Source: Saccharofermentans sp.
GTDB lineage: Bacteria > Bacillota_A > Clostridia > Saccharofermentanales > Saccharofermentanaceae
Assembly (NCBI GenBank): GCA_024692105.1
Contig: JAILMZ010000008.1
Coordinates: 43,421-107,420 of the forward strand
DNA length: 64,000 nucleotides
Direction of reading: 5' to 3'
A program made the translations under genes and the position numbers. Of this stretch, positions 5,257 through 56,002 are shown piece by piece; position 1 is the stretch's first letter; the number at the start of each line of letters is the position of its first letter. A model generated the notes under the pieces. The model was given only the letters and a program-made list of their open reading frames with translations, was not told the DNA's origin and made no database searches.

Positions 5257-5274
5257 CTTATCCTAACTCCCGCT

Positions 5275-6012
5275 TTATACTTTAAGACTTGTGTTTCCTA
5301 TCAAAACAGTCATATTGTCGGAGCTCCTGTTGGAACACGCTGAGTCGATCAGTTTTTGACAGACCGATTCGAGACTCGTTCTGTCGCGCAATCCGGCAGC
5401 CCAATCCTCTTTGTTAAGGAAGGCATAAAGCCCGTCCGAACACAGGACCAACAAATCGCCATAAATTATATTATAACTATAAATGTCAGGATTTAAAAAT
5501 TGATTTTCTCCAACAACTTTGACCAGACGGTTACGGCCGGGATGTACTTTTGCTTCCTCGCCGGTAATGCTTCCCTCCCTTACAAGCTCTGCAGCCTTAT
5601 TGTGGTCTTCCGTAAGCCTTCTGACCTCTTTGCCGTGGCAGAGATAGCACCTGGTATCGCCGATATGGCCGATAGTAAGCTTCTGGCCCTTAACGAGCGC
5701 TATGGTAAGCGTCGTGCACATGCCTATCCGCTCTCTATGCTCGGCACAATCGAGCAGGATGCGCACATTCACCTTATTGAACACTGTATTCAGGATCTTT
5801 CCGAGGTCTTCATCTGATGCACCGGGAAGCTTCTCAGCTAATTCTTCCAGAGCAGTCCTCACTGCCAGATAACTTGCAACCTCACCGCAGACCTCGCCTC
5901 CCAGACCGTCAGCAACAGCCATGCACATATATTCACCTATCTGCTCGTATGCGAAATTGTCTTCGTTCTTCTCCCTTACCGGGCCTTTGTCAGACATTCC
6001 GAAGCAGATCAT
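5275..6012 (-). CDS. prpC: PP2C-type Ser/Thr phosphatase partner of PrkC
   Basis: Reverses PrkC phosphorylation in the cytosol. The 245-residue PPM-fold protein has its metal-binding motifs: GPVREKNEDNF near the N-terminus, VADGLGG, GHIGDTRCYL, LTEDHN, LCSDGLY and SSDNMTVLI at the end. Its ATG overlaps the rlmN stop by four bases (ATGA) and prkC follows, the usual pairing for the kinase and phosphatase. No signal peptide or membrane segment is seen. Confidence 0.95.
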   Translation of the reverse strand: MICFGMSDKGPVREKNEDNFAYEQIGEYMCMAVADGLGGEVCGEVASYLAVRTALEELAEKLPGASDEDLGKILNTVFNKVNVRILLDCAEHRERIGMCTTLTIALVKGQKLTIGHIGDTRCYLCHGKEVRRLTEDHNKAAELVREGSITGEEAKVHPGRNRLVKVVGENQFLNPDIYSYNIIYGDLLVLCSDGLYAFLNKEDWAAGLRDRTSLESVCQKLIDSACSNRSSDNMTVLIGNTSLKV

Positions 6013-7046
6013 GACTTGCTCTCCTCCACGCTTCTTCTGAGCTGACCGCAGGCAGCCATTATGTCCGTGCCCATCTCACGTCTGAGAGTCGCATTAACAC
6101 CAAGCGATTCAAGAGTCTGCTGGAACTTTCTGACATGATCCTTGGAGCTTCTCCTGTAATCGCTTCCGGGGAACTCGTTAGCGGCAATGAGATTGACATT
6201 GCAAAGCATGCCGGAGATAAGCTTGGCCAAAGCCTTCGCATGTGCCTCCGAATCGTTCTTACCGGCAAAAAGGCTGTACTCAAACGTGATCCTTCTGTGT
6301 GTGGTTTCCGTATATCTCCTGCATGCTGCGATGAGATCGGGAAGAGCGTACTTACGCGCAATCGGCATGAGTTCTTTCCTGAGCGCATCATCCGGAGCAT
6401 GAAGGGAGATCGCCAGGTTGACCTGAAGATTCATAAAAGTAAACTCGTCTATCTTATCTATAAGACCGCAAGTCGATATCGTGATGTGCCTGGCACCGAG
6501 GTTCAATCCTTCGCTGTCTGTCGCAAGATTTACGAACCCCATCGTATTCTCGAAATTATCAAAAGGCTCGCCTATGCCCATAACAACAACGCTGTGTATA
6601 CGCTCTCCGATATGTCTCTGAGACAAGATGACCTGCGCCAGCATCTCACCTGATGTAAGGGATCTGCCAAACCCAAGCTTTGCAGATGCGCAGAATGTGC
6701 ATCCCATCTTGCAGCCTGCCTGAGACGAGATGCAGATCGAAGGCCCTATCTTATAGCGCATGATGACTGTCTCAATAACATTGCCGTCATAGAGCCTGTA
6801 TACAAGCTTGACCGTACCGTCTATCTGCGAGACGAACTCATTGATGACGGTCATGCCCTTGAAGATAAAGTCCTCTTCAAGCTTTGCTCTTAAGTCCTTG
6901 GGTATATTGGTCATCTCTTCTGTGTCGATGACGCCTGATGACAGCCACTTGTATATCTGCTTAGCCCTGAAAGAAGGAACGTGCTGCTCATCGCACCACG
7001 CCTTTAATTCTTCCTGTGTAAGATCCAGACAAAACTTCTCTGCCAC
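6009..7046 (-). CDS. rlmN: Dual-specificity 23S rRNA A2503 / tRNA A37 C2-methyltransferase
   Basis: A radical-SAM enzyme that methylates adenine C2 in 23S rRNA and some tRNAs. The cluster motif CKMGCTFCASA is present, as are the methyl-carrying cysteine region at the C-terminus (MGTDIMAACGQLR) and the GIGEPFDNFEN segment. The 345-residue length is standard. The start is GTG, immediately after the rsmB stop, with AAGGA about nine bases upstream. It belongs to RlmN rather than Cfr by context (rsmB upstream, housekeeping operon), but motif reading alone cannot fully separate the two. Confidence 0.93.
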   Translation of the reverse strand: MAEKFCLDLTQEELKAWCDEQHVPSFRAKQIYKWLSSGVIDTEEMTNIPKDLRAKLEEDFIFKGMTVINEFVSQIDGTVKLVYRLYDGNVIETVIMRYKIGPSICISSQAGCKMGCTFCASAKLGFGRSLTSGEMLAQVILSQRHIGERIHSVVVMGIGEPFDNFENTMGFVNLATDSEGLNLGARHITISTCGLIDKIDEFTFMNLQVNLAISLHAPDDALRKELMPIARKYALPDLIAACRRYTETTHRRITFEYSLFAGKNDSEAHAKALAKLISGMLCNVNLIAANEFPGSDYRRSSKDHVRKFQQTLESLGVNATLRREMGTDIMAACGQLRRSVEESKS

Positions 7047-9988: not shown

Positions 9989-11611
9989 CTAACCCCTCTT
10001 TGTCAGTTCCTCGTAATCTATCTTTCCCATAGCCGTTCTCGGAAGGCTTTCAAGGACTTCGTAACTCTTCGGCAGAGCGAATTTGGATACATTCTCGGCA
10101 AGTGAAGCCTTGACCTCTGCAATGACATCATCAGATCCTGTATCAGTTACGATATATGCCTTGCATATCTCTCCTCTGAACTTATCGGGAACGCCTACGA
10201 CAGCGCATTCTTTTACTCCGTTGCAGGCCAGTATGATATCTTCCAGGATGCCCGGATAAACATTATACCCGTTCGTAACAATCATGCGCTTTATCCTGGA
10301 ATCAAAGTAAAGATAGCCTTCTTCATCCATATGGCCCATATCACCTGTATAAAGCCATATCCTGCCGTCCTGCCTCTGTCTCAAGGCAGCAGCCGTCTCT
10401 TCAGGCTCTCCGAAATAACCCTTCATTACGGAAGGTCCGCTGATTATGATCTCACCGTTTACTCCGGGCGTAAGTTCTTCGTCTGTTGCCGGGTCGATTA
10501 TCTTAATGGTGTTATCCTTGTATGCTTTTCCGAGACAATTCTCCTTCAGGCATCCGGGCGGCATAAGACAAACACCGGACAAGCACTCCGTAAGTCCGTA
10601 ACCCTGCCTGATAACGGCTTTTGAACCGTGCCTTTTGAGAAGTTCGTTAAACTCTCTCTGCATCTCGGGAGGCAGTCTGTCACCACCGGATATTACGAGT
10701 TTTACAAAACTCATATCCGTTTCAGTGTCATTGGATATCATTGCTCCGAAGATCGCAGGTACGCCCGCTAATATCTCCGGTCTGTATTGATTAATAAGCT
10801 TGAAGAAATTCTTGAGTTTGAAGATCGGAAGAAGTACCGATGTTCCGCCGAAAGCCATTATGGTATGGACACCCACGCCGAGGCCGAAACCATGGAACAC
10901 CGGGAGAACAGCAAGTATCTTATCCCCCGGGACAAGGCATTCACAGCTGTCTATTGCTTCAATGGCCGTATAGTTGAAATTCCTGGAAGTGAGAAGCACG
11001 CCCTTGCTTTTGCCTGTGGAACCGCCTGTGTAGAGCATCGCACAGGGCTCATTCTGATCGGTAAAACCGGTCTCCTTAAGGTCAGTTTCGTAATCTGCGC
11101 CAAGACCGATGAAATCTCTGAAAGTCTCATATCCTGCCGCTTTTCTCGGGTTTCTTCCCCTAAGCCTGAATCCGAGCTTGATCATGGCAGGCAGATAATC
11201 GCCTGCACTAACGACATAGACTCTCCTGTCAGAATCCTTAAGGAAACCTATATTGGGCAGGATGCCGTCAAAAGCAAAAACTACTTTGGCATCAGATGAA
11301 GTGATATAACTCTCGAGTTCATTTACTGCCGAGAGCGGATGAATCATGTCACATATGGCACCTATCCTGCTGCATGCGTAAAAGAGCATGACCGCCTGAG
11401 GTATGTTCGGAAGTATAACTGCCACATGGTCGCCATGAGCAACGCCGAGGCACTTAAGTGCGCCCGCGCATTTGTCCGTCCTGGTTACCAGATCTTTATA
11501 TGATATATTGTTGCCGTAATAGTCGATCGCAGTGTTTGAGGGAAATCTCAAAGCACTCTGCTGCAACATCTCATATACCGAGAAATCCTGATAATCAAGG
11601 CTGTAACTCAT
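9989..11611 (-). CDS. Acyl-CoA synthetase (AMP-forming), long-chain fatty-acid-CoA-ligase type
   Basis: A class I adenylate-forming enzyme that activates a carboxylic acid with ATP and CoA. Motifs in order: MLYTGGSTGKSKGVLL phosphate loop, YGLTECLSG, YTGDMGHMDEEGYLYF, RIKRMIVTNGYNVYP, and the C-terminal catalytic Lys in AMGKIDY. The ATG at 11611 (MSYSLDYQ) gives 540 residues; upstream frame extension would run back into ahcY and is rejected. The acid substrate cannot be told from sequence. It lies five bases after ahcY, so co-transcription is likely, though its link to the purine genes is unclear. Confidence 0.85.
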   Translation of the reverse strand: MSYSLDYQDFSVYEMLQQSALRFPSNTAIDYYGNNISYKDLVTRTDKCAGALKCLGVAHGDHVAVILPNIPQAVMLFYACSRIGAICDMIHPLSAVNELESYITSSDAKVVFAFDGILPNIGFLKDSDRRVYVVSAGDYLPAMIKLGFRLRGRNPRKAAGYETFRDFIGLGADYETDLKETGFTDQNEPCAMLYTGGSTGKSKGVLLTSRNFNYTAIEAIDSCECLVPGDKILAVLPVFHGFGLGVGVHTIMAFGGTSVLLPIFKLKNFFKLINQYRPEILAGVPAIFGAMISNDTETDMSFVKLVISGGDRLPPEMQREFNELLKRHGSKAVIRQGYGLTECLSGVCLMPPGCLKENCLGKAYKDNTIKIIDPATDEELTPGVNGEIIISGPSVMKGYFGEPEETAAALRQRQDGRIWLYTGDMGHMDEEGYLYFDSRIKRMIVTNGYNVYPGILEDIILACNGVKECAVVGVPDKFRGEICKAYIVTDTGSDDVIAEVKASLAENVSKFALPKSYEVLESLPRTAMGKIDYEELTKRG

Positions 11612-11615
11612 TACT

Positions 11616-12872
11616 TTAGAAATCCCAGGAATTGATATATCTGTACTGTTCCTCGGTAAGCTTGTCGTAATTGATGTTCTTAGTCTCGAGCAGTATCTCT
11701 GCGACCCTGTTGTCAATGACTTCAGGAGTCTGATATACATCGATCGGAAGTCTTTCCTTCTGGGATGCGATATATCTTGCCGACTGTGCTTGGAGTGCAA
11801 AGCTCATATCCATGATCTCAACGGGATGACCGTCGCCTGATGCGAGATTAACAAGTCTTCCCTCAGCGATAATGCATACTGTATTACCATTGGAAAGTTC
11901 ATAACCGATGATGTTATTGCGCAGTTCCTTCTGGGATACTGCAAGCTCGGAAAGCTGCTTAACATTGACTTCGCAGTCGAAGTGGCCTGCATTACAGCAT
12001 ACTGCACCATCCTTCATCATGTTGAAGTGACGGCCTACGATGACATCCTTACAACCTGTAACGGTTACGAAGAAATCACCCAAAGGAGCAGCCTCATCCA
12101 TTGTCATGACGCTGTATCCTTCCATGAGTGCTTCACAAGCCTTAACGGGATCAACCTCAGTAACGATAACCTTTGCACCGAGGCCCTTTGCTCTCATCGC
12201 AACGCCTCTTCCGCACATTCCGTAGCCTGCAACAACGACAGTCTTGCCTGCAACGACAAGGTTTGTAGTAGCCATGATAGCTGTCCATACAGACTGGCCT
12301 GTACCGAAACGGTTATCAAACAGATGCTTACATCTTGCATCATTAACAGCGATGACAGGATATGCGAGCTGATTCTGCTTCTTAAGTATCTCAAGTCTGT
12401 GAACGCCTGTCGTAGTCTCTTCGCAGCCGCCCATGATATTGGGCGCAAGATCTTTAAGATCAGAATGGAGCAGCATCGCGAAATCGCCGCCGTCATCAAT
12501 TACGATGTCCGGGCCGAAATCAAGAGCCATCTTAAGGTGGTTGATATACTGCTCTTCGTTATCCCCGTGGATCGTATAGACATGCATACCTGTGCTTGCG
12601 AGAGCGGCAGCAACGTCATCCTGTGTGGACAGCGGATTGCAACCTGTCAGGGCGACATCTGCACCGCCTCTGCTGAGTGCTCTGGCAAGACATGCCGTCT
12701 TGGCTTCAACATGAACGGAAACGGCTATCTTGAGGCCCTTGAAAGGCTGCTCATCGATAAGTTCCTTCTCGATGGCACGAAGCACGGGCATATTGCGGTA
12801 AGCCCACTCAATCTTCTCCATGCCGTAAGGCGCCAGGCTCAGATCTTTAACGTCATAATCGGGTACAGACAT
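11616..12872 (-). CDS. ahcY: S-adenosylhomocysteine hydrolase
   Basis: Splits S-adenosylhomocysteine into adenosine and homocysteine using tightly bound NAD. The Rossmann segment VVVAGYGMCGRGVAMRAKG and the CCNAGHFDCEV motif are clear. At 418 residues it is of the shorter form found in archaea and Thermotoga-like bacteria. AAGGAG precedes the ATG by seven bases. The purine nucleoside phosphorylase gene sits just upstream, which suggests that the adenosine produced is salvaged by phosphorolysis. Confidence 0.93.
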   Translation of the reverse strand: MSVPDYDVKDLSLAPYGMEKIEWAYRNMPVLRAIEKELIDEQPFKGLKIAVSVHVEAKTACLARALSRGGADVALTGCNPLSTQDDVAAALASTGMHVYTIHGDNEEQYINHLKMALDFGPDIVIDDGGDFAMLLHSDLKDLAPNIMGGCEETTTGVHRLEILKKQNQLAYPVIAVNDARCKHLFDNRFGTGQSVWTAIMATTNLVVAGKTVVVAGYGMCGRGVAMRAKGLGAKVIVTEVDPVKACEALMEGYSVMTMDEAAPLGDFFVTVTGCKDVIVGRHFNMMKDGAVCCNAGHFDCEVNVKQLSELAVSQKELRNNIIGYELSNGNTVCIIAEGRLVNLASGDGHPVEIMDMSFALQAQSARYIASQKERLPIDVYQTPEVIDNRVAEILLETKNINYDKLTEEQYRYINSWDF

Positions 12873-12882
12873 ACGGTTCTCC

Positions 12883-13722
12883 TTACAATTCCTTTATGAA
12901 GCTCGATACCAGTGCACACATCTTATCAGATGCCTGATTTGCGACTTCAAGCACTTCCTCACCCGACAACTTGCCGGGTCTTATTCCTGCTGCCATATTC
13001 GTTACACATGAAAGGGCTGCGATCCTCATTCCCATATGGCTCGCAATGATAGCCTCGGGAACGGTGGACATTCCTACACAGTTGGCACCCATGCCCCTTA
13101 ATGCCCTTATCTCTGCCGGAGTCTCATACTGAGGACCTCTTGTATAAGCATAGATGCCTCTTTTGAGCTTGATACCAAGATTATCGGCACACTTTGTCAT
13201 GAGTTCCATATACTCTCTGTCGTATACAAAACTCTGATCAGGGAACCTGGGACCGAATTCATCAATATTTGTTCCTCTTAAGACAGGAACAACAAGGAAC
13301 GAGATATGATCTTCGATAAGGACCAGTTCCGGAGGAACAAAATCCTCTCCTATTCCGCCTGCGGCATTGGTGAGGACCAGTGTCTCGACTCCGAGCCTTC
13401 CCATAACTCTTACATAGAACGTAATGTCATCGGGATCATAGCCCTCATAATAGTGAAATCGTCCGCTCATCATGAAGACCAGTTTGCCTGAAAGCTCGCC
13501 GATTATCAGTTTTCCCGCATGACCGGGAGCAGTGGATGACGGGAATCCGGGGATATCAGAATACTTGATCTCCGAAGATTCATCACAAAGATCAGCCAAA
13601 GGACCGATACCGGAACCTAAGACTATGCAGATCTTCGGGATCTCACAGCCTCCGAGATGCTGCTTGATATACTCGCAGGCAGTGTCAACTTTGTTCAGAA
13701 ATCCGTTAGCATCTGTGATCAT
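12883..13722 (-). CDS. Purine nucleoside phosphorylase (trimeric PNP/MTAP family)
   Basis: Cleaves purine nucleosides with phosphate to give free base and ribose 1-phosphate. Motifs: VLGSGIGPLAD near residue 35, the phosphate-binding SGRFHYYEGY, TNAAGGI, and YTRGPQYETPAEIRAL; the base-pocket region GMSTVPEAIIA follows. Its 279 residues fit the trimeric class-II PNPs. The ATG follows the secA TAA by one base and uses a purine-rich stretch within the secA end. Specificity (guanosine/inosine versus adenosine) is not fixed by these motifs, but ahcY next door makes nucleoside salvage plausible. Confidence 0.9.
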   Translation of the reverse strand: MITDANGFLNKVDTACEYIKQHLGGCEIPKICIVLGSGIGPLADLCDESSEIKYSDIPGFPSSTAPGHAGKLIIGELSGKLVFMMSGRFHYYEGYDPDDITFYVRVMGRLGVETLVLTNAAGGIGEDFVPPELVLIEDHISFLVVPVLRGTNIDEFGPRFPDQSFVYDREYMELMTKCADNLGIKLKRGIYAYTRGPQYETPAEIRALRGMGANCVGMSTVPEAIIASHMGMRIAALSCVTNMAAGIRPGKLSGEEVLEVANQASDKMCALVSSFIKEL

Positions 13723-13723
13723 A

Positions 13724-16498
13724 TTATTTCTTTCCGCAACAATCCTTATACTTCTTACCGGAACCGCAGGGACAAGGATCGTTTCTTCCTACTTTGGAAG
13801 AATCTCTCTTGACGGGCTGAGCCGGCTTATCGTTACCTGTAGAACCCTGAATAGGCTTTGCAGCTGCCAGCGGAGTAACACTTGCATGAGACTCGCTTGT
13901 AGCCTTCACTGTCTCTTTGGCCTGGACCTGCTTATCCTGTGAGAAATTTGCTCTCATGATGAACTTGACAGCGTCATTCTGGATAGCCTCGTTCATCTCT
14001 TCGAACATTGCAGAACCTTCGAGCTTATACTCGACAACAGGATCGTGCTGACCGACGCTTCTCATCCTGATGGACTGAGAAAGCTGATCGAGAGCATCGA
14101 TATGATCCATCCACTTGAGATCGACAGTCCTGAGAAGGATCTGTCTTTCTGCCTGACGGAATACCTCTGTAGTGATCTCTTCTTCCTTAGCTGCAAGAGC
14201 GTTCTTCGCATCTTCTGCAAGAGTTTCTGCAACTTCATCGGAAGAACCGATCTCCTGGGAATCATCCTTGATCTTCAATACTGTCGGAAGTTCGCCGAAT
14301 ACATCATCGAGCTTCATACCGAGCGCATATCTCTCGGAATTGGAGATCACTCCGTCGAGAGCAAAGTCTTCAACGAGTCTTTCTGCGACCTTATCGATCA
14401 TGCCGAGGAAGATGTTATGGACGTCTTCACCGTCGATGATTCTTCTTCTCTGCTCATATGTGATGGTTCTCTGGATATTGTTAACGTCATCGTATTCGAG
14501 GACATTCTTTCTTGCGCCGAAATGCATAGCCTCGAGCTTCTTCTGTGAGCTGTCGATGAGCTTTCCGATAGTCCGTGTGGAGATCTCCATGGTATCATCG
14601 AGACCGAAGCTGTCTGCAATTGCGGTAACCTTGTCGCCGCCGAAGATCCTGAGAAGGTCATCTTCAAGAGACAGGAAGAACTTGGATCTTCCGGGGTCAC
14701 CCTGACGTCCGGAACGTCCCTTGAGCTGGTTGTCGATACGTCTTGATTCATGACGCTCTGTACCAACGATGAAAAGACCTCCGAGGTTTCTTACCTCTTC
14801 TGCTTCAGGAGCAAGTTCTTCCTTGAACTTACTCTCGAGATCGGAGAATCTCTTTCTTGCTTCAAGAACGAGTTCATCATCAGTATCGTTATGTGCAGTG
14901 GAAGCATCGATGAGCTCATCGGTATAACCGAGTTTTCTCATCTCCTGGAGTGCGAGGAACTCTGCGTTACCGCCTAAGATGATATCGGTACCACGTCCTG
15001 CCATGTTCGTAGCGATTGTAACTGCACCCTTACGGCCTGCCTGCGCAACGATCTCAGCCTCGCGCATATGGTTCTTAGCGTTGAGGACGTTGTGCTTGAT
15101 TCCGTATTTCGAGAAGATCCTTGATAAGAGCTCTGACTTATCGACATTAACTGTACCTACAAGTACAGGCTGACCTTTATCGTGAGCCTCCTTAACGGCT
15201 TTGAGCACTGCCGTGTACTTACCGTTCTCTGTCTTAAATACGGCATCAATATCATCCACACGGACAACATCCTTATTCGTGGGAATCTGGATAACGTCGA
15301 GGTTATAGATCTGTCTGAACTCGGCTTCCTCTGTATAAGCTGTACCGGTCATTCCGGAGAGTTTTTTATACATTCTGAAGAAGTTCTGGAAAGTGATCGT
15401 AGCCAGTGTCTTGTTCTCGCTTGCTACCTTAACGCCTTCCTTTGCTTCGATAGCCTGGTGAAGACCGTCGCTGTAACGGCGTCCAGGCATAAGACGGCCG
15501 GTAAAGTCATCAACGATGATTACTTCGCCGTCCTGAACGATATACTGCTGATCCTTCTTGAAGTTGCCGTTAGCCTTAAGGGCGTTGTTGATGTAATGCT
15601 GCAGATCGAAGTTGTCCGGATCAGACAGGTTCTGGATACCGAAATACTTCTCTGCCTTTGCGATACCGTTAGCAGTAAGCACGGAAGTCTTAGCCTTCTC
15701 ATCTACAACGTAGTCGGAATCGCCTACGATATCGTCCATATCGACCTTATCGTCTGTCTCGACTACAACATAAGGCTTCAGTGTCTTAACGAGCGCATCC
15801 GCCTTAACATACAGATCGGAAGACTCGACGCCTCTGCCTGAGATGATGAGCGGTGTTCTAGCTTCGTCGATAAGGATCGAGTCGACCTCGTCGACGATGG
15901 CATAGTTAAGATCACGCTGAGCAATACGCTCTTTGCTTATAACCATGTTGTCACGCAGATAATCGAAGCCGAACTCGTTGTTTGTTCCGTATACGATGTC
16001 GCGTGAATACATATCCTTTCTCTGATTGTTAGGGATATCGTGGATGATAAGTCCTACGGTCATGCCGAGGTAGCGGTATACCTTACCCATCCATTCGGAG
16101 TCACGCTTTGCGAGGTAATCGTTTACCGTTACGACATGAACACCGTTGCCTGTAAGAGCATTGAGGTAAACCGGCATCGTAGCAACGAGCGTCTTACCTT
16201 CACCTGTCTTCATCTCGGCTATTCTTCCCTGGTGCAGGATGATACCGCCGATAACCTGAACCTTATAAGGCTTCATGCCGAGAACTCTCCAGGCTGCCTC
16301 TCTTACCGTAGCGAATGCTTCGGGAAGGATAGAATCAAGTGTCTCGCCTGCCGCGAGCCTGTCCTTGAATTCCTGTGTCTTACCTATCAGTTCCTGATCT
16401 GTGAGCTTGGAGTATGACTCTTCAAGAGACATAACCTTGTCGACAGTAGATCTGATCCTCTTAAGTTCCTTCTCACTGTGTGTTGGAAATAAACCCAT
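13724..16498 (-). CDS. secA: Preprotein translocase ATPase SecA
   Basis: The motor that drives proteins through SecYEG. Walker A MKTGEGKTLVATMP, the DEVDSILIDEARTPLIISG segment, TNMAGRGTDIILGG in the second nucleotide-binding fold, and a C-terminal zinc motif [17 protein letters not shown] are all present in 924 residues. AAGGAG precedes the ATG by about nine bases. The gene sits between a TrpR-like regulator and pnp rather than beside prfB, its usual neighbour in Bacillus. No defects seen. Confidence 0.97.
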   Translation of the reverse strand: MGLFPTHSEKELKRIRSTVDKVMSLEESYSKLTDQELIGKTQEFKDRLAAGETLDSILPEAFATVREAAWRVLGMKPYKVQVIGGIILHQGRIAEMKTGEGKTLVATMPVYLNALTGNGVHVVTVNDYLAKRDSEWMGKVYRYLGMTVGLIIHDIPNNQRKDMYSRDIVYGTNNEFGFDYLRDNMVISKERIAQRDLNYAIVDEVDSILIDEARTPLIISGRGVESSDLYVKADALVKTLKPYVVVETDDKVDMDDIVGDSDYVVDEKAKTSVLTANGIAKAEKYFGIQNLSDPDNFDLQHYINNALKANGNFKKDQQYIVQDGEVIIVDDFTGRLMPGRRYSDGLHQAIEAKEGVKVASENKTLATITFQNFFRMYKKLSGMTGTAYTEEAEFRQIYNLDVIQIPTNKDVVRVDDIDAVFKTENGKYTAVLKAVKEAHDKGQPVLVGTVNVDKSELLSRIFSKYGIKHNVLNAKNHMREAEIVAQAGRKGAVTIATNMAGRGTDIILGGNAEFLALQEMRKLGYTDELIDASTAHNDTDDELVLEARKRFSDLESKFKEELAPEAEEVRNLGGLFIVGTERHESRRIDNQLKGRSGRQGDPGRSKFFLSLEDDLLRIFGGDKVTAIADSFGLDDTMEISTRTIGKLIDSSQKKLEAMHFGARKNVLEYDDVNNIQRTITYEQRRRIIDGEDVHNIFLGMIDKVAERLVEDFALDGVISNSERYALGMKLDDVFGELPTVLKIKDDSQEIGSSDEVAETLAEDAKNALAAKEEEITTEVFRQAERQILLRTVDLKWMDHIDALDQLSQSIRMRSVGQHDPVVEYKLEGSAMFEEMNEAIQNDAVKFIMRANFSQDKQVQAKETVKATSESHASVTPLAAAKPIQGSTGNDKPAQPVKRDSSKVGRNDPCPCGSGKKYKDCCGKK

Positions 16499-16503
16499 CG
16501 ATA

Positions 16504-16950
16504 TTACTCCTTAATCTTTTTCTTATTCTTCTCATCATTGGCCTTGAGCCTGTCAAGTGCCGTTCTGTAACCGCCTTCCGGATTGACATAGCAGTTCTTG
16601 ACTCTCGATATGGTCGTCGAACTGACTTTGGTAGAGGCTCGTGATTTGCCTTTTGTCCTTCCGCACCTGCGTTTACCGCTGTCTTCAGAAGACTCCGTAT
16701 CGTTGCCGATGTCCTCGGTCTCCTTCGGCGACAGCTCTTTGATTATCTCTTCGTAACTCTTGTTCTGTTCGAACCTTCGAACGATCTGCCATCTGTGAAG
16801 GAAAGAGTGAAGTTCGTTGACCGAGCAAAGATCCCTGAAGAACTTATTCATCTCTTCAGGAGTATTCATGGTAAGAATAGCTTCGTACAGGTCTGTAAGT
16901 TCTACGATCTCTTCGTCACTGAAAGACGGCGCATCATTCTTATCTATCAT
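16504..16950 (-). CDS. YerC/YecD-type TrpR-like DNA-binding protein with an inserted basic loop
   Basis: A small protein of the Trp-repressor-like (YerC) family, probably a transcriptional regulator. The FFRDLCSVNELHSFLHRWQI helices and the TTISRVKNCY recognition helix match the family. Between the two helices of the helix-turn-helix (after YEEIIKEL and before VSSTTISRV) lie about 35 extra, low-complexity charged residues including KRRCGRTKGKSR. Family members normally have only three to five residues there. The ATG at 16950 is preceded by a GTG codon; 148 residues. It lies five bases before secA. The target is unknown. Confidence 0.75.
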   Translation of the reverse strand: MIDKNDAPSFSDEEIVELTDLYEAILTMNTPEEMNKFFRDLCSVNELHSFLHRWQIVRRFEQNKSYEEIIKELSPKETEDIGNDTESSEDSGKRRCGRTKGKSRASTKVSSTTISRVKNCYVNPEGGYRTALDRLKANDEKNKKKIKE

Positions 16951-17289: not shown

Positions 17290-18282
17290 CTATTCCGTAT
17301 ATTTCATGCTCGTGCCGTATTCTTCAACTGTCATGCAGATACCCTTGCTGGCGGCGTAATAACCCATTGAGTATACAGTATTCTTGGCATTTTCGTCTGA
17401 ATTTGACGGTATAACCACGACCAGGCTCTTCTGATATATCGAATCTATGGTGTATTGAGTGCCGTTTATCTTGGTGTCTGCGCCCCCAAAACCATACAGA
17501 TCGTCGATATTATCCTGTACTTTCTTGATGATCTCGTCTTCAGACTGATAAGTCGGAGCCGTCAGATCTATGCTCATTATCGATGTGGCTTTGCCGTCTT
17601 CATAAGCATCGATTACGGGAAATGTCTTCGGAAGGTTCCCTCCGTACATATCCCTGAAGTAATCTCCCCTGGTAAAATTGTCCTCGCTCCAGATGTCCGC
17701 TTCCTTTTTCTGTTCATCTGAAGCAAGCAGGAAAAGATCTCCTTTCCCGTAGACCGGGATAACATTGTAGATGCTCCTGTCGATGCGGCCTGCCAGCGTA
17801 AGGACAGAATAAGTTGTGCAGACCTCGATGATGCTCTTCTCGGTATTAACTTCAAACGTGACATTAATATCGTCAGGCATCATGAAATCCGAGCCGCCGT
17901 TACGTCTTATATAGCCTTCCGCGATATCATTTGCCATATAGCCTCCGAGCGCACCCTCCAAGACTATGTCTTCGAGCATGTAGCCTGATGCAAAGTCGGC
18001 TCCGGTAATGAACTTGGCTATGGTACTTATGACATCAGTTCCGGTAAGCCCTTCTATCTCAATATCCGGGAAGGCATTTACGGTCGTTGACACAACATCT
18101 GAAGCCGTGATGGCAAGCGGGCATATCATCGCTACTTTCTCACATGTCTGTTCCTGTGCCCTTCTCATAAGGATATCTGTCCTGTAGACATTGATCACAC
18201 TGATGATCGCTGCCAGAAATGCTAAAACGACCGTAAAACCTATCGCAGATTCGATCGTCACTGAACCGCGTTTATTATTCAT
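17290..18282 (-). CDS. TadE-like pseudopilin/surface protein
   Basis: A 330-residue protein with a type-IV-prepilin-like N-terminus: basic NNKRG, then SVTIE with the Glu at +5 after the Gly, then a membrane helix to about residue 33. This is the arrangement of prepilin-peptidase substrates in Tad systems. The extracytoplasmic rest has no domain I recognise. Its ATG overlaps the stop of the preceding gene by four bases and has GGGAGG upstream. No TadA/TadB/TadC or prepilin peptidase gene is in this window, so they must be elsewhere or absent. Confidence 0.65.
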   Translation of the reverse strand: MNNKRGSVTIESAIGFTVVLAFLAAIISVINVYRTDILMRRAQEQTCEKVAMICPLAITASDVVSTTVNAFPDIEIEGLTGTDVISTIAKFITGADFASGYMLEDIVLEGALGGYMANDIAEGYIRRNGGSDFMMPDDINVTFEVNTEKSIIEVCTTYSVLTLAGRIDRSIYNVIPVYGKGDLFLLASDEQKKEADIWSEDNFTRGDYFRDMYGGNLPKTFPVIDAYEDGKATSIMSIDLTAPTYQSEDEIIKKVQDNIDDLYGFGGADTKINGTQYTIDSIYQKSLVVVIPSNSDENAKNTVYSMGYYAASKGICMTVEEYGTSMKYTE

Positions 18283-49621: not shown

Positions 49622-50320
49622 TTAATCTTCAGGATTGCTTCCCTCACCGAGGAATTCGGAGAAATCGTCGAATGTCTCATCATCTGTTGCGATTGATTTC
49701 TCATCAGCCTTAACCTCAGGTTTGACTTCAGGCTTTGCCTCTTCTTTCTTATCAGAAGCATCAGGATTCTCAGAATCTGCTTCAACTGCTGCGGCACGCT
49801 CTTCTTCCTTCTTCTTCTCAGCAAGATACTTCTCCTGCTCTCTGTCGATCCTTGCACGCTCACGTGCTTCTTCGAGGAGCTGCTGCTGGAGTTTTCTTCT
49901 GTCTTCTCTTGCCTTATTCTTGGCATCGATCTCAGCCTGGGCTTTCTCTTCTTCAGCGATCTGCTCTTCCATCTTCTTGCGATCTTCTTCATTCATCTTG
50001 TTCGCATTCTCACGGCGGAGCTTATTGAGATCGGAAGGAGCCTGAACGGCATTCTTCATTATCGAATCCATGCGCTTACGGCTCTCGGCTGCCTGCCTCT
50101 CTTCATCGGCAGCAACCTTCTCGCCCATATTCTGAAGATCAGACAGTTCATCTGCTGATACGGAAGCAACAGCACCCGCAACAGGCTTGCTGATCGCGAA
50201 AGCCTTTATCTCAAAATCTTCGACACCGGAAGCAGAATAATCTGAAGCTGCATCCTTTATGGTCTTCATATCCGGTATATCAACACCCGGAAGTATCTCA
50301 TATTTCTTCTCGTCAGGCAT
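49622..50320 (-). CDS. Charged coiled-coil protein of the kinase-VWA-phosphatase operon
   Basis: 232 residues, very rich in Glu, Lys, Ala and Arg. The N-terminal ~70 residues (KYEILPGVDIPDMKTI) look folded; residues 75-175 form a long predicted coiled coil (RKKMEEQIAEEEKAQAEIDA), and the acidic C-terminus ends in FDDFSEFLGEGSNPED. No membrane segment. The ATG has GGAGG five bases upstream. It begins 12 bases after the PP2C gene, so it is part of the operon; as the last member it may be a scaffold or a phosphorylation target. I know no family name for it. Confidence 0.6.
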   Translation of the reverse strand: MPDEKKYEILPGVDIPDMKTIKDAASDYSASGVEDFEIKAFAISKPVAGAVASVSADELSDLQNMGEKVAADEERQAAESRKRMDSIMKNAVQAPSDLNKLRRENANKMNEEDRKKMEEQIAEEEKAQAEIDAKNKAREDRRKLQQQLLEEARERARIDREQEKYLAEKKKEEERAAAVEADSENPDASDKKEEAKPEVKPEVKADEKSIATDDETFDDFSEFLGEGSNPED

Positions 50321-50331
50321 ATTCCCTCCTC

Positions 50332-51417
50332 TTAACCTGCCTTTGACAGGATAAACAAAACGATTCCCACGACCGCAAGCAGCAATCCGATGCAGAATAC
50401 CGCGACAGACAGCTTGCTGACTTTTGTCTTCCCTTGCTTACTTTCTTCAGGTTCCTTAACTTCAATTGTCTCAGGCTTCTCTTCCTTCACCGGCTCAGAC
50501 GGAGTCGCCACTGCTTCGGCAGGTTCTTCAGCCTTCTTGTTTGTTATTATCTCTTGAGCTTTTACCAGTTCAGGCTTGATCTGCACCGACAGTTCCTTGA
50601 AGCTCTCGTCAGATGTTCCGAACTTTTCTGCGCTGCTCTCCAATGCACCCGCATCAGGAGCACTTGTCCCCTCGAAATACATAATGCCGATACTTGCATC
50701 GTCAGACACATTGCTTCCGCCGACGATGTATTTCTCGACTGTATCCTTAAGCGCAGCCTCTCCGGCTTCCCTGCCTTCGCTGAAAGTCTCAGCGAGCTTC
50801 ACTACAACGGGTTTAACAAGACCCGCTTCTTCATTGTATACACTGTCCTGAACGCCGTCTGTCATGAGAGCTATCGCATGGCAGTCATCGACAGTCGTCT
50901 TCAGGAGTCGCATATAATTATCTGCATGAGCCGCAGTAACAAAGAAAGTCTTGCCTTCCTTGTCATTCTGAGGCATTGTAAAAGGCGAGACACCAGATGA
51001 AGATATCCTTGCGATAAGGCCGTCACCGATATGTCCGATCATGAGCCTTCTGTCCTTGACCGCTGCAAAAAGGAGCGTGCAGGACAGCCTGTCTATTACA
51101 TCAAGATCGCGCTCGTCCATTATCTTCGAGAACTCGACGCGGAGCTTCGCCATGAGGTAGCCGCGCACCGCAGCCTCTCTGTTCTCGGCATACAAAGCAT
51201 CGAAATGATCACACAGGACAGAAGCAATTGTATCTACGGCACACTTGGAACCGAACCTTGCATCGGTATACTGCTTTCCGCCTGCACCGTCAGCAATACA
51301 AACTACAGACACGCCGTTGCGCGTAACCGCACAAGATGCATCCTCACACGGTGTACCACGGCTAACGTGCTTGTTTCCAATAGTTGTAAAGCAGCCAACG
51401 GTTATTCCACTGTACAT
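50332..51417 (-). CDS. PP2C-type phosphatase with a C-terminal membrane anchor
   Basis: 361 residues. The PPM fold has TPCEDASCAV, IADGAGGKQYTDARFGS, GHIGDGLIARI, LMTDGVQDSVY and SDDASIGIMY, that is the metal-binding Asp residues. A charged linker rich in Pro, Glu and Lys (about 290-335) leads to one C-terminal helix (about 338-358, VAVFCIGLLLAVVGIVLFIL), so the enzyme is anchored facing the cytoplasm. The ATG overlaps the VWA gene stop by one base (TAATG). Together with the VWA protein and kinase it makes a TerY-P-like triad. Confidence 0.82.
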   Translation of the reverse strand: MYSGITVGCFTTIGNKHVSRGTPCEDASCAVTRNGVSVVCIADGAGGKQYTDARFGSKCAVDTIASVLCDHFDALYAENREAAVRGYLMAKLRVEFSKIMDERDLDVIDRLSCTLLFAAVKDRRLMIGHIGDGLIARISSSGVSPFTMPQNDKEGKTFFVTAAHADNYMRLLKTTVDDCHAIALMTDGVQDSVYNEEAGLVKPVVVKLAETFSEGREAGEAALKDTVEKYIVGGSNVSDDASIGIMYFEGTSAPDAGALESSAEKFGTSDESFKELSVQIKPELVKAQEIITNKKAEEPAEAVATPSEPVKEEKPETIEVKEPEESKQGKTKVSKLSVAVFCIGLLLAVVGIVLFILSKAG

Positions 51418-52154
51418 TATTCGTCTTCCTCATCAAGGAACTTCATGAAATCATCGACTCCGACAGAATCGCCCTGGGGCTCGGTGTTGATGTTGTAAAG
51501 GATATCGTCGCTCTTTCCGGAAGATACGATGGAAGAAGACGAAGATCCGAGGAATTCAAAGAGTTTTCCGAAATCTGCGGAAGATACCGAGATAGGCTCT
51601 TCTCTCTTAAGCGAGAGTCTCTTGAGGATATCGAGGTCAGCACCTGAACCTACACCGATATTGAAGATAACGAGCTTATCTTCAGCCTCAAGTTCGTTGC
51701 ATGCCTTGATTGCAAGTTCCATATTCTGCATGGCATTAGGACCTTGCGGAGCACCGTCGGTGATTACTACAAGCCAGGGCTGATAGTACTTGATGCCCAT
51801 CTCTTTGTAGCCTTCTTTACGTGTGTTAAGAAGTTCCAATGCCGTAAGTATGCCTTCACCTATAGGTGTGAGAGTCGTTGAAGCCTTGATCTCAGGAACA
51901 CCCTTTTCCTTTGAGATCTTACCGAAAGGCATAGCAATCTCAACCTTAGCTCCGAACGTAACGATAGCTATGTCCGTAGAAGATCTTGTATCGTCATTAG
52001 CCTTGATCGAAGCCATGAAGTTCTGAAGACCCATGTTAAGGAGCTTAATGGGGTTACCCATCATGGAACCCGATGTATCAAGCGCAAAACAGATCGGTAA
52101 TCTCCTCTTCGTGCTGCTTCCGAAATCAGAAGCGTTAAAAATCGAATCTGCCAT
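51417..52154 (-). CDS. VWA-domain protein, TerY-like
   Basis: 245 residues, nearly all a von Willebrand A domain with a complete metal-ion-dependent adhesion site: DTSGSMMG (Asp26, Ser28, Ser30), a Thr in STTLTPIGEG and VITDGAPQGP. No signal peptide, so it acts in the cytosol. The short C-terminal tail is acidic. TerY-type VWA proteins are linked to kinases and PP2C phosphatases in tellurite and stress systems. The ATG has GGGAGG eight bases upstream and the kinase gene ends 39 bases before it. Confidence 0.85.
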   Translation of the reverse strand: MADSIFNASDFGSSTKRRLPICFALDTSGSMMGNPIKLLNMGLQNFMASIKANDDTRSSTDIAIVTFGAKVEIAMPFGKISKEKGVPEIKASTTLTPIGEGILTALELLNTRKEGYKEMGIKYYQPWLVVITDGAPQGPNAMQNMELAIKACNELEAEDKLVIFNIGVGSGADLDILKRLSLKREEPISVSSADFGKLFEFLGSSSSSIVSSGKSDDILYNINTEPQGDSVGVDDFMKFLDEEDE

Positions 52155-52193
52155 TAATAATCCTCCCGGACATAGTATTTATATTGCAGTCTG

Positions 52194-53990
52194 TCAGAAC
52201 AAACCGAGGAATTTTCCGTTCTTCTTTTCCGGCTTAGGGGTTTCGTTTCCCTTCTCTGAGCCGTAATTTTTTGCCGCTTCGGGATCGCCTATATTGCGCG
52301 GCTCATACTTTCCGCTGGGAGCAGCAAAAGTCTTCTTCTCGAAAATAGGCTTCTGCTCGGGATTCTGGAAAGGAGAATACTGCTTCGGCATGTCGGCAGG
52401 CAGCTCTTCAGGCGCTGCAGCCGCGTTCTCGGCATTCTCAGATAGCTTCGATAGCTTCTTCTCAAAAGCAGCAGTAACGGAGTTGCCGGTCTTGTGCTCT
52501 TCAGGACTGAAATCGTTTGCCAGCCCCGTGTACTCCTTCTGATTATACGGCGAATCAGGGAACAGTTTGTAAGCCTCGACGTCTTCTCCCAGCTTGAAGT
52601 TGATTATGTCTTCACGGTACGCGGACACTGCGTCATACCACTGGATAGCCTCGTAACGGGTACCTTCGTGGAAGGTATTATAAAGCATGGTGCGGATCCT
52701 CTCAGGGAGCCTTCTCCATATAAAGTTATAGCCGCCCAAAGGGATATGTTCTTCATCGGAATCATCAAGAGTGTACGGAAACTGCTTTTCCAGTATTTCC
52801 TCTCTTAATGTCTCGGCTCCTTTCCTTGTGGCATACGGATGCAGACCGCAGAACAAGATGGAGAATACAAGCATTGCTATGGAATAATCCTCATCACAAA
52901 GTCCGCGCAGGAACCCGGAAAAATCCTGACCCCACAATCTCGGATCGGTAAACTCTTCCGTACCGACAGGACAAGGTAAATTTCCAACCTGGACACTGTC
53001 CATATCGATAAGGTAGACCTTCTTGGGGGATGCGATCAATGCATTCTTGAGCTGGATATCACCTGCAATGACATTGTGCAGATGCAGATAGAGATACTTC
53101 TCGATAAGAGAGATAAGGGTATCGACCACATCAAGTCTTGTCCAGTCAGGGAACTGTTCAAGGATCGCATCGGGGCCGTCGAAAACGCTTCCCAACGTTG
53201 TTCCCTTGCCGAGAGGCATCGTATAGCCTACGGGGATATTGTTGAAATGCAGAAGTGTCCTCGGAAGGCAGAATCCTGATGTCTGGATCCTGAGTTCTGA
53301 GAGCTTCTGGAGCTTAGCCCATCTTAATGGAGTGATAATGCCTCTGTGATAGATCTTGGCAACAAGCGACTTGTTGTTCGTGGTAAAGACCATACCCTCA
53401 GCACCGCTGCTCATACGCTTCACGAGTTCATAAGACTCATTGCCGTTATTGCTCTTGACGATATCGCCGACGCTGGCAAAAGCGTATTCATCAAGGAAAG
53501 AATTATTAAGTGCAAGTTTGCTTACATCAGGATAAGGATATTCTTCCGTCATCTGCGCGATGGAATCGAATATCTTGAGTTCCTTCTTGGTAAGGATGGC
53601 AACATTGCCTGAGAAATCAGGCTTCTTCTCGTAGAGACGCTTTGTGAAGATCGCATTTCTGGTGGAAATGATACAAGCATCCTCAACAGAAGATAAAGCT
53701 TCAAGGAAAGCATCTGTCTCTATCTCGTTTACAAGGTGGAGCTTGTGGTCAGGAAGCAGATATGCGCAGAAAGTCTTCATCGCATCGATGGCTTTACCGT
53801 TCTTGATATCAGCCTGACGGACTACGCAATAATGGAGCATCTTGAACGACTTGTTGACATAGACTTCAATGCCGTTCTTCATGATGACATCCAGCAATTC
53901 AGTAAAGACCTGCGTTCCGCCGGCCTCAAACATTACCGAATAGTCAAAAACTAAAGCCTTATATTTTGCAAGACTCTCAAACATACCCAT
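52194..53990 (-). CDS. TerY-P-triad-type protein kinase with a PIN-like N-terminal domain
   Basis: 598 residues. About 1-145 resemble a small alpha/beta fold, possibly PIN-like or HAD-like (ALVFDYSVMF, CIISTRNAIF). The kinase domain follows: glycine-rich SSGAEGMVF (194-202), LVAKIY with Lys212, AGDIQLKNAL with Asp311 and Asn316, LIDMDSVQVG with Asp329, and GTEEFTDPRLWG. These match the atypical kinases of the TerY-P triad (typical GD...N and LID.DSFQ). From about 500 the tail is disordered, Pro/Glu/Lys-rich. I use the ATG at 53990; a GTG precedes it. It is the first gene of the operon and has a promoter. Confidence 0.75.
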   Translation of the reverse strand: MGMFESLAKYKALVFDYSVMFEAGGTQVFTELLDVIMKNGIEVYVNKSFKMLHYCVVRQADIKNGKAIDAMKTFCAYLLPDHKLHLVNEIETDAFLEALSSVEDACIISTRNAIFTKRLYEKKPDFSGNVAILTKKELKIFDSIAQMTEEYPYPDVSKLALNNSFLDEYAFASVGDIVKSNNGNESYELVKRMSSGAEGMVFTTNNKSLVAKIYHRGIITPLRWAKLQKLSELRIQTSGFCLPRTLLHFNNIPVGYTMPLGKGTTLGSVFDGPDAILEQFPDWTRLDVVDTLISLIEKYLYLHLHNVIAGDIQLKNALIASPKKVYLIDMDSVQVGNLPCPVGTEEFTDPRLWGQDFSGFLRGLCDEDYSIAMLVFSILFCGLHPYATRKGAETLREEILEKQFPYTLDDSDEEHIPLGGYNFIWRRLPERIRTMLYNTFHEGTRYEAIQWYDAVSAYREDIINFKLGEDVEAYKLFPDSPYNQKEYTGLANDFSPEEHKTGNSVTAAFEKKLSKLSENAENAAAAPEELPADMPKQYSPFQNPEQKPIFEKKTFAAPSGKYEPRNIGDPEAAKNYGSEKGNETPKPEKKNGKFLGLF

Positions 53991-54016
53991 CACTCACTTC
54001 ATAGATTCCCAAATAA

Positions 54017-54045
54017 ATAATATATTAATGTAAGGGTTCTATCAA
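54017..54045 (-). promoter_or_regulatory. Promoter of the kinase-VWA-PP2C-coiled-coil operon
   Basis: Minus-strand TTGATA (54040-54045) and TATTAT (54017-54022) with 17-base spacing, about 30 bases upstream of the kinase ATG. Confidence 0.6.
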
Positions 54046-54096: not shown

Positions 54097-54113
54097 ATTT
54101 GATATTATCAAAT
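54097..54113. repeat. AT-rich inverted repeat between the MutS-like and kinase genes
   Basis: ATTTGAT-ATT-ATCAAAT, a perfect 7-bp stem with a 3-base loop. It could be a weak terminator for the MutS-like gene or an operator of the kinase operon; no long U-run follows on either strand. Confidence 0.4.
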
Positions 54114-54139: not shown

Positions 54140-56002
54140 TTATTCGATGCCTACGAGCTTCATGAGGTACTTGGCATTAGACTCCCTGCTGATTCCGGGA
54201 GCCAGGATGTAGTCGAAAGTTATGCCAGTGTCCGTGTATTTTTCGGAGAAGTGGTAATATCTGACGTTCTTGAAGTTCTTTACGGTATTGTCGACCATGG
54301 CATAATCATGTGTCGTCATCATGCCGCAGATATAGTCTCTGGAAAGGTTATGCAGGACCGTAAGTGCACCTTCCGTCCTGTCATCGGAGTTGGTTCCCCT
54401 GAATATCTCGTCTATCAGGAACAGCATGGGTTTACCGTCTTCCGCTCCCTCGATGATCTTGGATATCCTGGTAAGTTCAGCTTTGAACGTACTGATGTTT
54501 TCTTCGAGACTGTCGACTATCCTCATTGAAGACATAATGCGCATCTTTCCGATGGTAAGAGCGGTACAAGGAACCGGTGCACCCATGTAAGCAAGGATTG
54601 AACAGACACCTACAGTCCTTATATGAGTCGTCTTACCTGACATATTAGATCCTGTGATGATGGCTATATCAGATTTGATCTCAACAGAATTGGCAACAGC
54701 CGTCTCGTGAGACAGCAGAGGATGAACAATATTCTCACCGTTGAAATACGCATTATCAGCAGGTTCAACGGAATCAACAAAGACCGGGAATTCGCTTGTT
54801 TCCGATGCTATTCCGACCTGAGCGGCACACATGAGAGATTCTATGCCTGCGATACCGTCTATCTGTACCCTGAGGCTCGGGCCATAGATATCTGCCCATC
54901 TTCCCATGAGATATGACACGAGATAATCGAGAGGACAAACAAGATTAAGGAGCAGAGCAAATATCGGCTGGTTTCTGAGCTGGGCAAAGAAGAGCGCGGT
55001 ATTAAGAGCATTGAGCGACTCTGATGCAGTATATCTTCTGACATTACCTTTGATGTAACTGACGAGCAAAGGAGATTTTAGATCAGCCTTCTCAAGTTCA
55101 ACAAACAGTTTTTGTATCGTGCTGACCTGCTTGGGCATCTCTCCTGCCGCTTTGAGATATTCACCGTTAAGCTTGAGACCGATTATCCAGACAACAAAAT
55201 CGAAAATAAGCGCAGCTGCAATCGATGCGCCGATAAAGTGGTTGAAGAAGATTATGCAGATGACAGGAACTATCCAGAAACACATGGAGAAGATCGCAAG
55301 TATGGCAGGAAGCTTGCCCAGCGGCTTTCCGTTATCGGCAAAATTCAAAAGCGCTTTGGGGCTCTTGGTCATCTTTCCCAAAGCAGCGATTGCCTGATAT
55401 GACTCCATGAAATCTTTCCTGTCGATCAGTTCGGCTACCGCCTCTTCCATGAGCTTGATATCTTCAACGGTCCTGTCAGACACGGGACTGTACAACAGTT
55501 CATCAGCAAATGCTTTCCTTCCGAACTGTGTCTCAGATACATTGTAAAGAGAGAAAAGGGATTTCTTGCCGAACAGATCGAGATCCATGCAATAATCATG
55601 ACCCGGAGTAAAGAATTCGTTTCCGCAGAACCACTCGACCGCATCTTCTATCTCTTCGCGTCTTTTAAGGCCGTATGTGGATACTTCCCTGAGCATCTGG
55701 AAATCACCCTTGATCCTTGCCATGTATTTCTGATTAACAAGGTAGAGGCTCTCAAGATACTCCTGCCTGTCTCTTACACCGTCATGGATGTAGCACAGAA
55801 GGAAAAACGCAAAGATAAAAGCACCGCCTGCAAGGGTCAGAACGCCCTGTGCCCCGATCATTCCAAATACGAATGAGAATGTTCCGATAATAAACGAGAT
55901 GAATCGAAGAATGCTGAGGATCAGGCTCTTACGGCCGGTTGCACGGATGTCTTCTGACAACTCTTCCGCACGTTTCTCGAAATATGCCAGATCAGACTTC
56001 AT
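54140..56002 (-). CDS. Membrane-anchored MutS-family ATPase
   Basis: 620 residues. The C-terminal ~200 residues are a MutS ATPase: Walker A TGSNMSGKTTHIRTVG, Walker B FLIDEIFRGTNSDDR and MTTHDYAM, with the MutS-like core helices before it. It lacks the mismatch-recognition domain and the Smr nuclease. The N-terminus instead has two pairs of hydrophobic helices (about residues 27-70 and 230-272), so it is a membrane protein. Its ATG overlaps the sirtuin stop by four bases (ATGA). The role is unknown; a mismatch-repair function is unlikely given the anchor. Confidence 0.78.
   Translation of the reverse strand: MKSDLAYFEKRAEELSEDIRATGRKSLILSILRFISFIIGTFSFVFGMIGAQGVLTLAGGAFIFAFFLLCYIHDGVRDRQEYLESLYLVNQKYMARIKGDFQMLREVSTYGLKRREEIEDAVEWFCGNEFFTPGHDYCMDLDLFGKKSLFSLYNVSETQFGRKAFADELLYSPVSDRTVEDIKLMEEAVAELIDRKDFMESYQAIAALGKMTKSPKALLNFADNGKPLGKLPAILAIFSMCFWIVPVICIIFFNHFIGASIAAALIFDFVVWIIGLKLNGEYLKAAGEMPKQVSTIQKLFVELEKADLKSPLLVSYIKGNVRRYTASESLNALNTALFFAQLRNQPIFALLLNLVCPLDYLVSYLMGRWADIYGPSLRVQIDGIAGIESLMCAAQVGIASETSEFPVFVDSVEPADNAYFNGENIVHPLLSHETAVANSVEIKSDIAIITGSNMSGKTTHIRTVGVCSILAYMGAPVPCTALTIGKMRIMSSMRIVDSLEENISTFKAELTRISKIIEGAEDGKPMLFLIDEIFRGTNSDDRTEGALTVLHNLSRDYICGMMTTHDYAMVDNTVKNFKNVRYYHFSEKYTDTGITFDYILAPGISRESNAKYLMKLVGIE

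Follow-up and report, generated by a model that had tools for sequence, protein, structure and literature searches.

A conserved operon of a kinase, a VWA protein, a PP2C phosphatase and a coiled-coil-like protein in gut and rumen Clostridia: a putative membrane-tethered relative of the YegI-YegL-PphC and TerY-P triads

The grouping of a kinase, a VWA protein and a PP2C phosphatase known as the TerY-P triad is reportedly to be credited to Anantharaman et al. (2012). Most described triads of this kind belong to variable islands of stress and defence genes. In the literature that we searched, which left subscription papers largely outside it, their signal and target are not established; neither the operon presented here, nor a TerY-P kinase with a PIN domain, nor the coiled-coil family was found described there. 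The accessible parts of three accounts define TerY-P as a VWA protein and a PP2C phosphatase together with a kinase that bears at its C-terminus a zinc ribbon or, where the system is antiphage, an OB-fold (PMC11090510, PMC7699616, PMC4978471). In Escherichia coli, YegI is described, in the available portion of the source, as a membrane-bound, autophosphorylating kinase that PphC dephosphorylates (PMC13232886). Here, we report an operon of four minus-strand open reading frames (ORFs; positions 49622-53990) in a stretch of 64,000 nucleotides from Saccharofermentans sp. (GCA_024692105.1, contig JAILMZ010000008.1, positions 43,421 to 107,420), hereafter the window. It encodes a kinase, a VWA protein, a PP2C phosphatase and a charged, coiled-coil-like protein and is a real and conserved variant of the known kind of triad. 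With a little more belief than doubt, and on sequence evidence, we read it as a putative phosphorylation switch, reversible and tethered to the membrane, that is related to YegI-YegL-PphC and TerY-P and passed on vertically.

All four genes lie on the minus strand. The kinase (52194..53990; 598 amino acids, with an alternative GTG start listed at 53993) consists of a degenerate PIN-like domain, a YegI-like kinase domain, a disordered linker and a basic-aromatic C-terminus. It is followed by a YegL-like VWA protein of 245 amino acids with a complete metal ion-dependent adhesion site (MIDAS; D26, S28, S30, T96 and D133; 51417..52154), a PP2C phosphatase of 361 amino acids with all of its motif Asp residues (50332..51417) and the fourth protein of 232 amino acids (49622..50320). 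An earlier note on this DNA had reported four closely spaced minus-strand genes carrying the motifs AGDIQLKN, LIDMDS and DTSGSMMG; all three motifs were found, and the spacing is indeed close, with 39 bp between the kinase and VWA genes, a 1-base overlap (TAATG) between the VWA and PP2C genes and 11 bp before the fourth gene. Measured from last base to first base, these distances are 40, 0 and 12, and the corresponding medians in relatives, with starts chosen mechanically, are 37 (79 loci), 0 (76) and 8 (70).

Profile searches, on which the earlier note had made its comparison with TerY-P depend, place the kinase and the VWA protein beside E. coli YegI and YegL. The kinase domain (residues about 175-480; 52551..53468, minus strand) has Lys212, Asp311, Asn316 and Asp329 invariant in 35/35 rows, and likewise in a 28-row alignment, and the profile of these 35 kinases matches YegI over residues about 177-479 with an hhalign probability of 99.2 (E 3.7e-19). 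The AlphaFold model gives the kinase fold with high confidence and the tail with low confidence (best Foldseek row, E 2.7e-10). The VWA protein matches Pfam VWA (E 6e-14) and YegL (36% identity, E 1e-34), and its MIDAS residues are present in all of the 80 aligned rows having a letter there; it is TerY-like by way of this YegL similarity, TerY itself not being part of the comparison. The phosphatase matches Pfam PP2C_2 (E 1.1e-32) and PphC (E 4e-8), with the six motif Asp residues present in 77/77 rows. Because of this homology to YegI, YegL and PphC, the TerY-P-like reading of the earlier note is right in kind, and what does not hold is TerY-P in the strict sense, the kinase having neither a zinc ribbon nor an OB-fold; no zinc domain was detected by Pfam in the window kinase or in four family kinases.

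The kinase matched 109 of the 115 genomes of the GTDB family of genome G001 (108 when the trivial match in G041 is set aside), always as one copy per genome, in two contig pieces in G023 and as a fragment in G085. It was found in none of the 73 genomes of the order outside the family (188 searched, with the same 109 alone matching). In the seven family genomes without the kinase the VWA gene is also absent, for which missing sequence is a possible cause. A MutS-like gene stands upstream of the operon in 72/72 loci with sufficient sequence, more than 500 bp away in 22 of them; in the four such loci inspected, a diaminopimelate decarboxylase-like gene lies between (by reading). Given the presence in nearly the whole family of these gut and rumen Clostridia, the absence outside it, the single copy and the constant MutS-like neighbour, the operon looks like a vertically inherited core locus, not an accessory island. 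At E <= 0.001, the kinase had 373 close relatives, of which the best 120 were listed; those named among them come from Saccharofermentans and Clostridiales metagenome genomes. In a 27-sequence tree, the family kinases form one group (support 0.999) separate from YegI and the PIN-kinases.

Gene order was followed in the best 80 of 106 relative loci, all 80 of which were examined (L-numbers denote loci of relatives, G-numbers genomes and P-numbers kinase proteins). The genes stand together there in the order of the window, the kinase being present in 80, the VWA gene in 79 and the PP2C gene in 77; the last is shifted by 6 kb in L013 and visible as a partial copy in L051. The shift in L013 is due to a 6-kb insertion between the VWA and PP2C genes (10511-16523), the sole such split among the 80 loci, with genes that resemble, by eye, those for a response regulator, a sensor kinase and an ABC transporter. 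The earlier note had also tied its proposal to conservation of the coiled-coil gene next to the other three, and this gene was present in 75/80 loci (70 by phmmer and five, L076-L080, by reading), while in the other five (L013, L017, L051, L069 and L074) the sequence ends before or within it.

The fourth protein has no Pfam match better than E 0.37, and its NCBIfam matches are weak as well. Tyr7, Pro16 and Glu73 show no variation across 25 rows, and the protein carries a conserved N-terminal motif, KKYEILPGVDIPDMKTIKDAASDY (50237..50308, minus strand), and a C-terminal DDFSEFL motif (49649..49669, minus strand) of the same kind as DDFMKF in the C-terminal tail of the VWA protein (51438..51455, minus strand). 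A profile search returned 184 proteins; among the best 120 listed, the named relatives are Clostridiales/Eubacteriales hypothetical proteins and one with a 'colicin uptake' label. Defined as [DE][DE]F..[FLY] within the last 25 residues, the acidic tail motif was found in 78/83 VWA proteins and 51/78 fourth proteins, as against 0/84 kinases, 0/80 phosphatases, 2/605 other control ORFs, 1/103 acidic-tailed controls and about 3% of shuffled tails; since the rows are related, these counts are not independent.

Is the system located at the membrane? The phosphatase ends in a hydrophobic helix of the transmembrane type by hydropathy (50350..50406, minus strand), which recurs in 80/80 relatives' proteins, compared with 51/605 control ORFs under a slightly different rule, so the membrane-anchored phosphatase of the earlier note stands. 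The kinase is probably membrane-associated too, as judged from its relatives: a transmembrane helix occurs in 5/84 kinases (L076, L078 and L121-L123), mostly of deep branches, and a short basic-aromatic tail, KNGKFLGLF in the window (52197..52223, minus strand; often FGLF in relatives), ends the remaining kinases (79/84 fit a loose rule). Among the best 120 of the 373 close relatives, 100 end exactly in FGLF. The suggestion that the tail replaces the helix draws on the deep-branch helices and the reported membrane location of YegI, not on the loose tail rule.

The extra N-terminal alpha/beta domain that the earlier note had seen on the kinase was recovered in the AlphaFold model and is probably a PIN domain (RNase fold) in degenerate form (residues about 9-150; 53541..53966, minus strand), in which D16 is invariant and K50, H53 and R118 are nearly so. 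In a single profile alignment, the first catalytic Asp is conserved in 38/38 family rows, and the other seven aligned positions hold acids in 1, 7, 10, 15, 2, 0 and 0 of the 38, compared with 14-24 of 24 rows at the matching positions in related PIN-kinases. His53 is found in 36/38 family rows and Arg118 in 37/38, and the window kinase itself retains acids (D93 and E97) at two further aligned positions. Of the catalytic acid cluster of a PIN nuclease, the family thus keeps the first Asp alone in all rows, a result that hangs on the profile alignment, and the RNA-cutting domain is apparently dead.

Several observations weigh against our interpretation. The Pfam kinase score of the window kinase is only E 0.12, two of the four family kinases scanned pass the Pfam cut-off and two fail, and the NCBIfam matches are weak too. 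The PIN assignment has no significance by sequence (hhalign E 0.23, probability 0.3%), so that the pairing of positions depends on an alignment lacking significance on its own; the structural similarity is middling, and Pfam PIN is absent from the window kinase and from the four family kinases scanned. The loose basic-aromatic tail rule also fits 165/605 control ORFs, and among the more diverse 84 kinases F.GLF occurs near the end in only 39 (G[LKM]F in 70), for which reasons the tail argues little for membrane binding by the kinase. In the deep-branch genomes L121-L123, a short fourth protein keeps the N-terminal motif without the coiled coil or the C-terminal motif.

If the operon is a phosphorylation switch, its parts could work as follows. 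Autophosphorylation of the kinase and its phosphorylation of the fourth protein would be undone by the PP2C phosphatase on the inner side of the membrane. The VWA protein, with its metal bound, may serve as an adaptor, with the DDFxxF tails of the VWA and fourth proteins competing for, or sharing, one docking site. The degenerate PIN domain would act as a ligand-binding or nucleic-acid-binding sensor, with no nuclease role, and the phosphorylated coiled-coil protein as an output scaffold. A single-copy core locus with an extra two-motif protein would narrow the search for substrates and docking sites to a few candidates. A bolder proposal, which we regard as unlikely, has a module once used in conflict becoming the core, membrane-bound signalling device of an entire bacterial family. 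A dead PIN domain on its kinase would sense RNA or a nucleotide, and the kinase/phosphatase pair would engage one partner or another depending on competition between the DDFxxF tails of the VWA adaptor and of a coiled-coil effector particular to the lineage. The operon may show a nuclease-linked module becoming housekeeping signalling, the nuclease site being decayed in the rows examined.

Three other explanations have to be weighed. The operon could report the state of the cell wall or membrane in parallel to PrkC, with the coiled-coil protein as a division or envelope scaffold, which we consider tentative and somewhat unlikely. Membrane anchoring and core status fit it, as do a gene for a MraY/WecA-type glycosyltransferase downstream in the window and in many loci, and a canonical pair of a PASTA kinase (702 amino acids) and a PP2C phosphatase about 46 kb from the operon (window 3148-6012, minus strand), the PASTA kinase scoring above its model's cut-off in 107/115 family genomes; the organism thus has two kinase/phosphatase systems, of which the operon, as the second, probably does something else. 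Against this explanation, the glycosyltransferase gene converges with the operon, and elsewhere among the loci its place as the first neighbour is taken by a Gfo/Idh-type gene, so this linkage says little. Far less credible is that the PIN-like domain still cuts RNA under the control of phosphorylation, as in an IRE1-like kinase-nuclease. The fold, the invariant first Asp, D93 and E97 of the window kinase and a PIN_4 match on a related kinase (E 2e-4, at the cut-off) speak for it, but the few acids at the other seven positions and the prevalent His53 and Arg118 speak against it, within the same non-significant alignment, and we hold it to be highly improbable.

The operon might also be an antiphage TerY-P system like those tested by Gao et al. 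(2020) that simply has no zinc ribbon or OB-fold. The three enzyme types are the same; a stand-alone role in antiphage defence is reported, in the accessible part of the source, for TerY-P whose kinase has an OB-fold (PMC11090510); and related triads of other Clostridia adjoin, judging by eye, an apparent type I restriction operon in L116 or, in L120, genes of WXG100-type secretion. Against this, the near-universal presence of the kinase in the family and the same upstream gene in the loci examined are unlike a sporadic defence island, and the ten neighbours scanned included no mobile or restriction gene. The best PADLOC match of the four proteins was E 0.0047 (PD-T4-6, to the kinase), with none to TerY up to E 1, although the TerY test is weak, since E. 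coli YegL itself reaches no better than E 0.032 with that model. We therefore regard a defence role as quite unlikely and retain the membrane-tethered switch as the favoured reading.

As for the surroundings of the operon, the earlier note had remarked on a single promoter and on the absence of ter genes, and both remarks agree with what was found. A promoter-like TTGATA-17-TATTAT (54017..54045, minus strand; consensus score 10/12) precedes the kinase gene; in the four relatives aligned, this stretch is strongly conserved in L001-L003 and weaker in L004, and a scan of the region gave 10 promoter-like sites compared with 5.9 +/- 2.7 in shuffles. Upstream of it lies a perfect palindrome, ATTTGATA-N-TATCAAAT (54097..54113, no strand assigned), whose full form ATTTGATANTATCAAAT is also exact in L001 and L002. 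Allowing <=2 mismatches, it has three sites in 1.27 Mb of loci, each upstream of a kinase gene, and it is a candidate operator confined to the closest relatives. The MutS-like neighbour is, in the window, a MutS domain V protein of 620 amino acids with N-terminal hydrophobic segments (54140-56002, minus strand). No Ter family was detected among 20 window neighbours by Pfam (E <= 0.001), the other window genes being checked by eye only, and TerD occurs in 1/115 family genomes; linkage to Ter, restriction or secretion genes was likewise not found among the neighbours by Pfam. The remaining content of the window is chromosomal housekeeping by Pfam or eye, including RuvA, RuvC, SecA and the PASTA pair. 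Elsewhere in the window, a 330-amino-acid protein (17293-18282, minus strand) has an N-terminus that is hydrophobic and looks, by eye, like that of a pilin; its C-terminal part matches CDI_toxin_EC869_like (PF21111, E 8e-9), and it is possibly a secreted nuclease-type effector.

Two side observations concern related loci. L116, which looks like a type I restriction locus, has upstream of its PIN-kinase a second gene (5529-6518, plus strand) whose product, by eye, starts like a helix-turn-helix protein and resembles a PIN domain in one half. In L117 (4687-9017, plus strand), a zinc-tailed kinase and a VWA gene follow a gene resembling, by eye, a TIR domain with repeats, and no PP2C gene was found in the 15 kb of locus sequence.

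Compared with described systems, the operon shares with E. coli YegI-PphC(YegK)-YegL three homologous genes at one locus. However, the match to YegI begins at its residue 6, so YegI has no N-terminal PIN-like domain, PphC has 253 amino acids compared with 361 in the operon phosphatase, and no coiled-coil gene is annotated at the E. coli locus. The actinobacterial GAP1-N2 GTPase systems, in the accessible part of their description, have a kinase fused to a zinc ribbon or transmembrane helices beside PP2C and vWA proteins (PMC7159879). They resemble the operon in an active, sometimes transmembrane-fused kinase, a PP2C phosphatase and a stand-alone vWA protein, but belong to a different phylum, and no GTPase partner was seen among the operon neighbours scanned. 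The PIN-kinase-zinc-ribbon TerY-P systems of other Firmicutes (L116; P0121-P0240) carry a PIN domain ahead of a kinase domain of this same kinase family, the family profile matching the L116 kinase at 8.4e-79, and in L116 VWA and PP2C genes adjoin the PIN-kinase as in the operon. In contrast to the operon, they keep the PIN acids (24 kinases aligned) and a zinc-binding C-terminus, and L116 has two VWA genes and no coiled-coil gene. With the TerY-P triad in general, the operon has the kinase, the TerY-like VWA protein and the PP2C phosphatase in common; it differs in having no zinc ribbon or OB-fold and no adjoining Ter, restriction or secretion genes, and in being a core locus with a fourth gene and a degenerate PIN-like domain.

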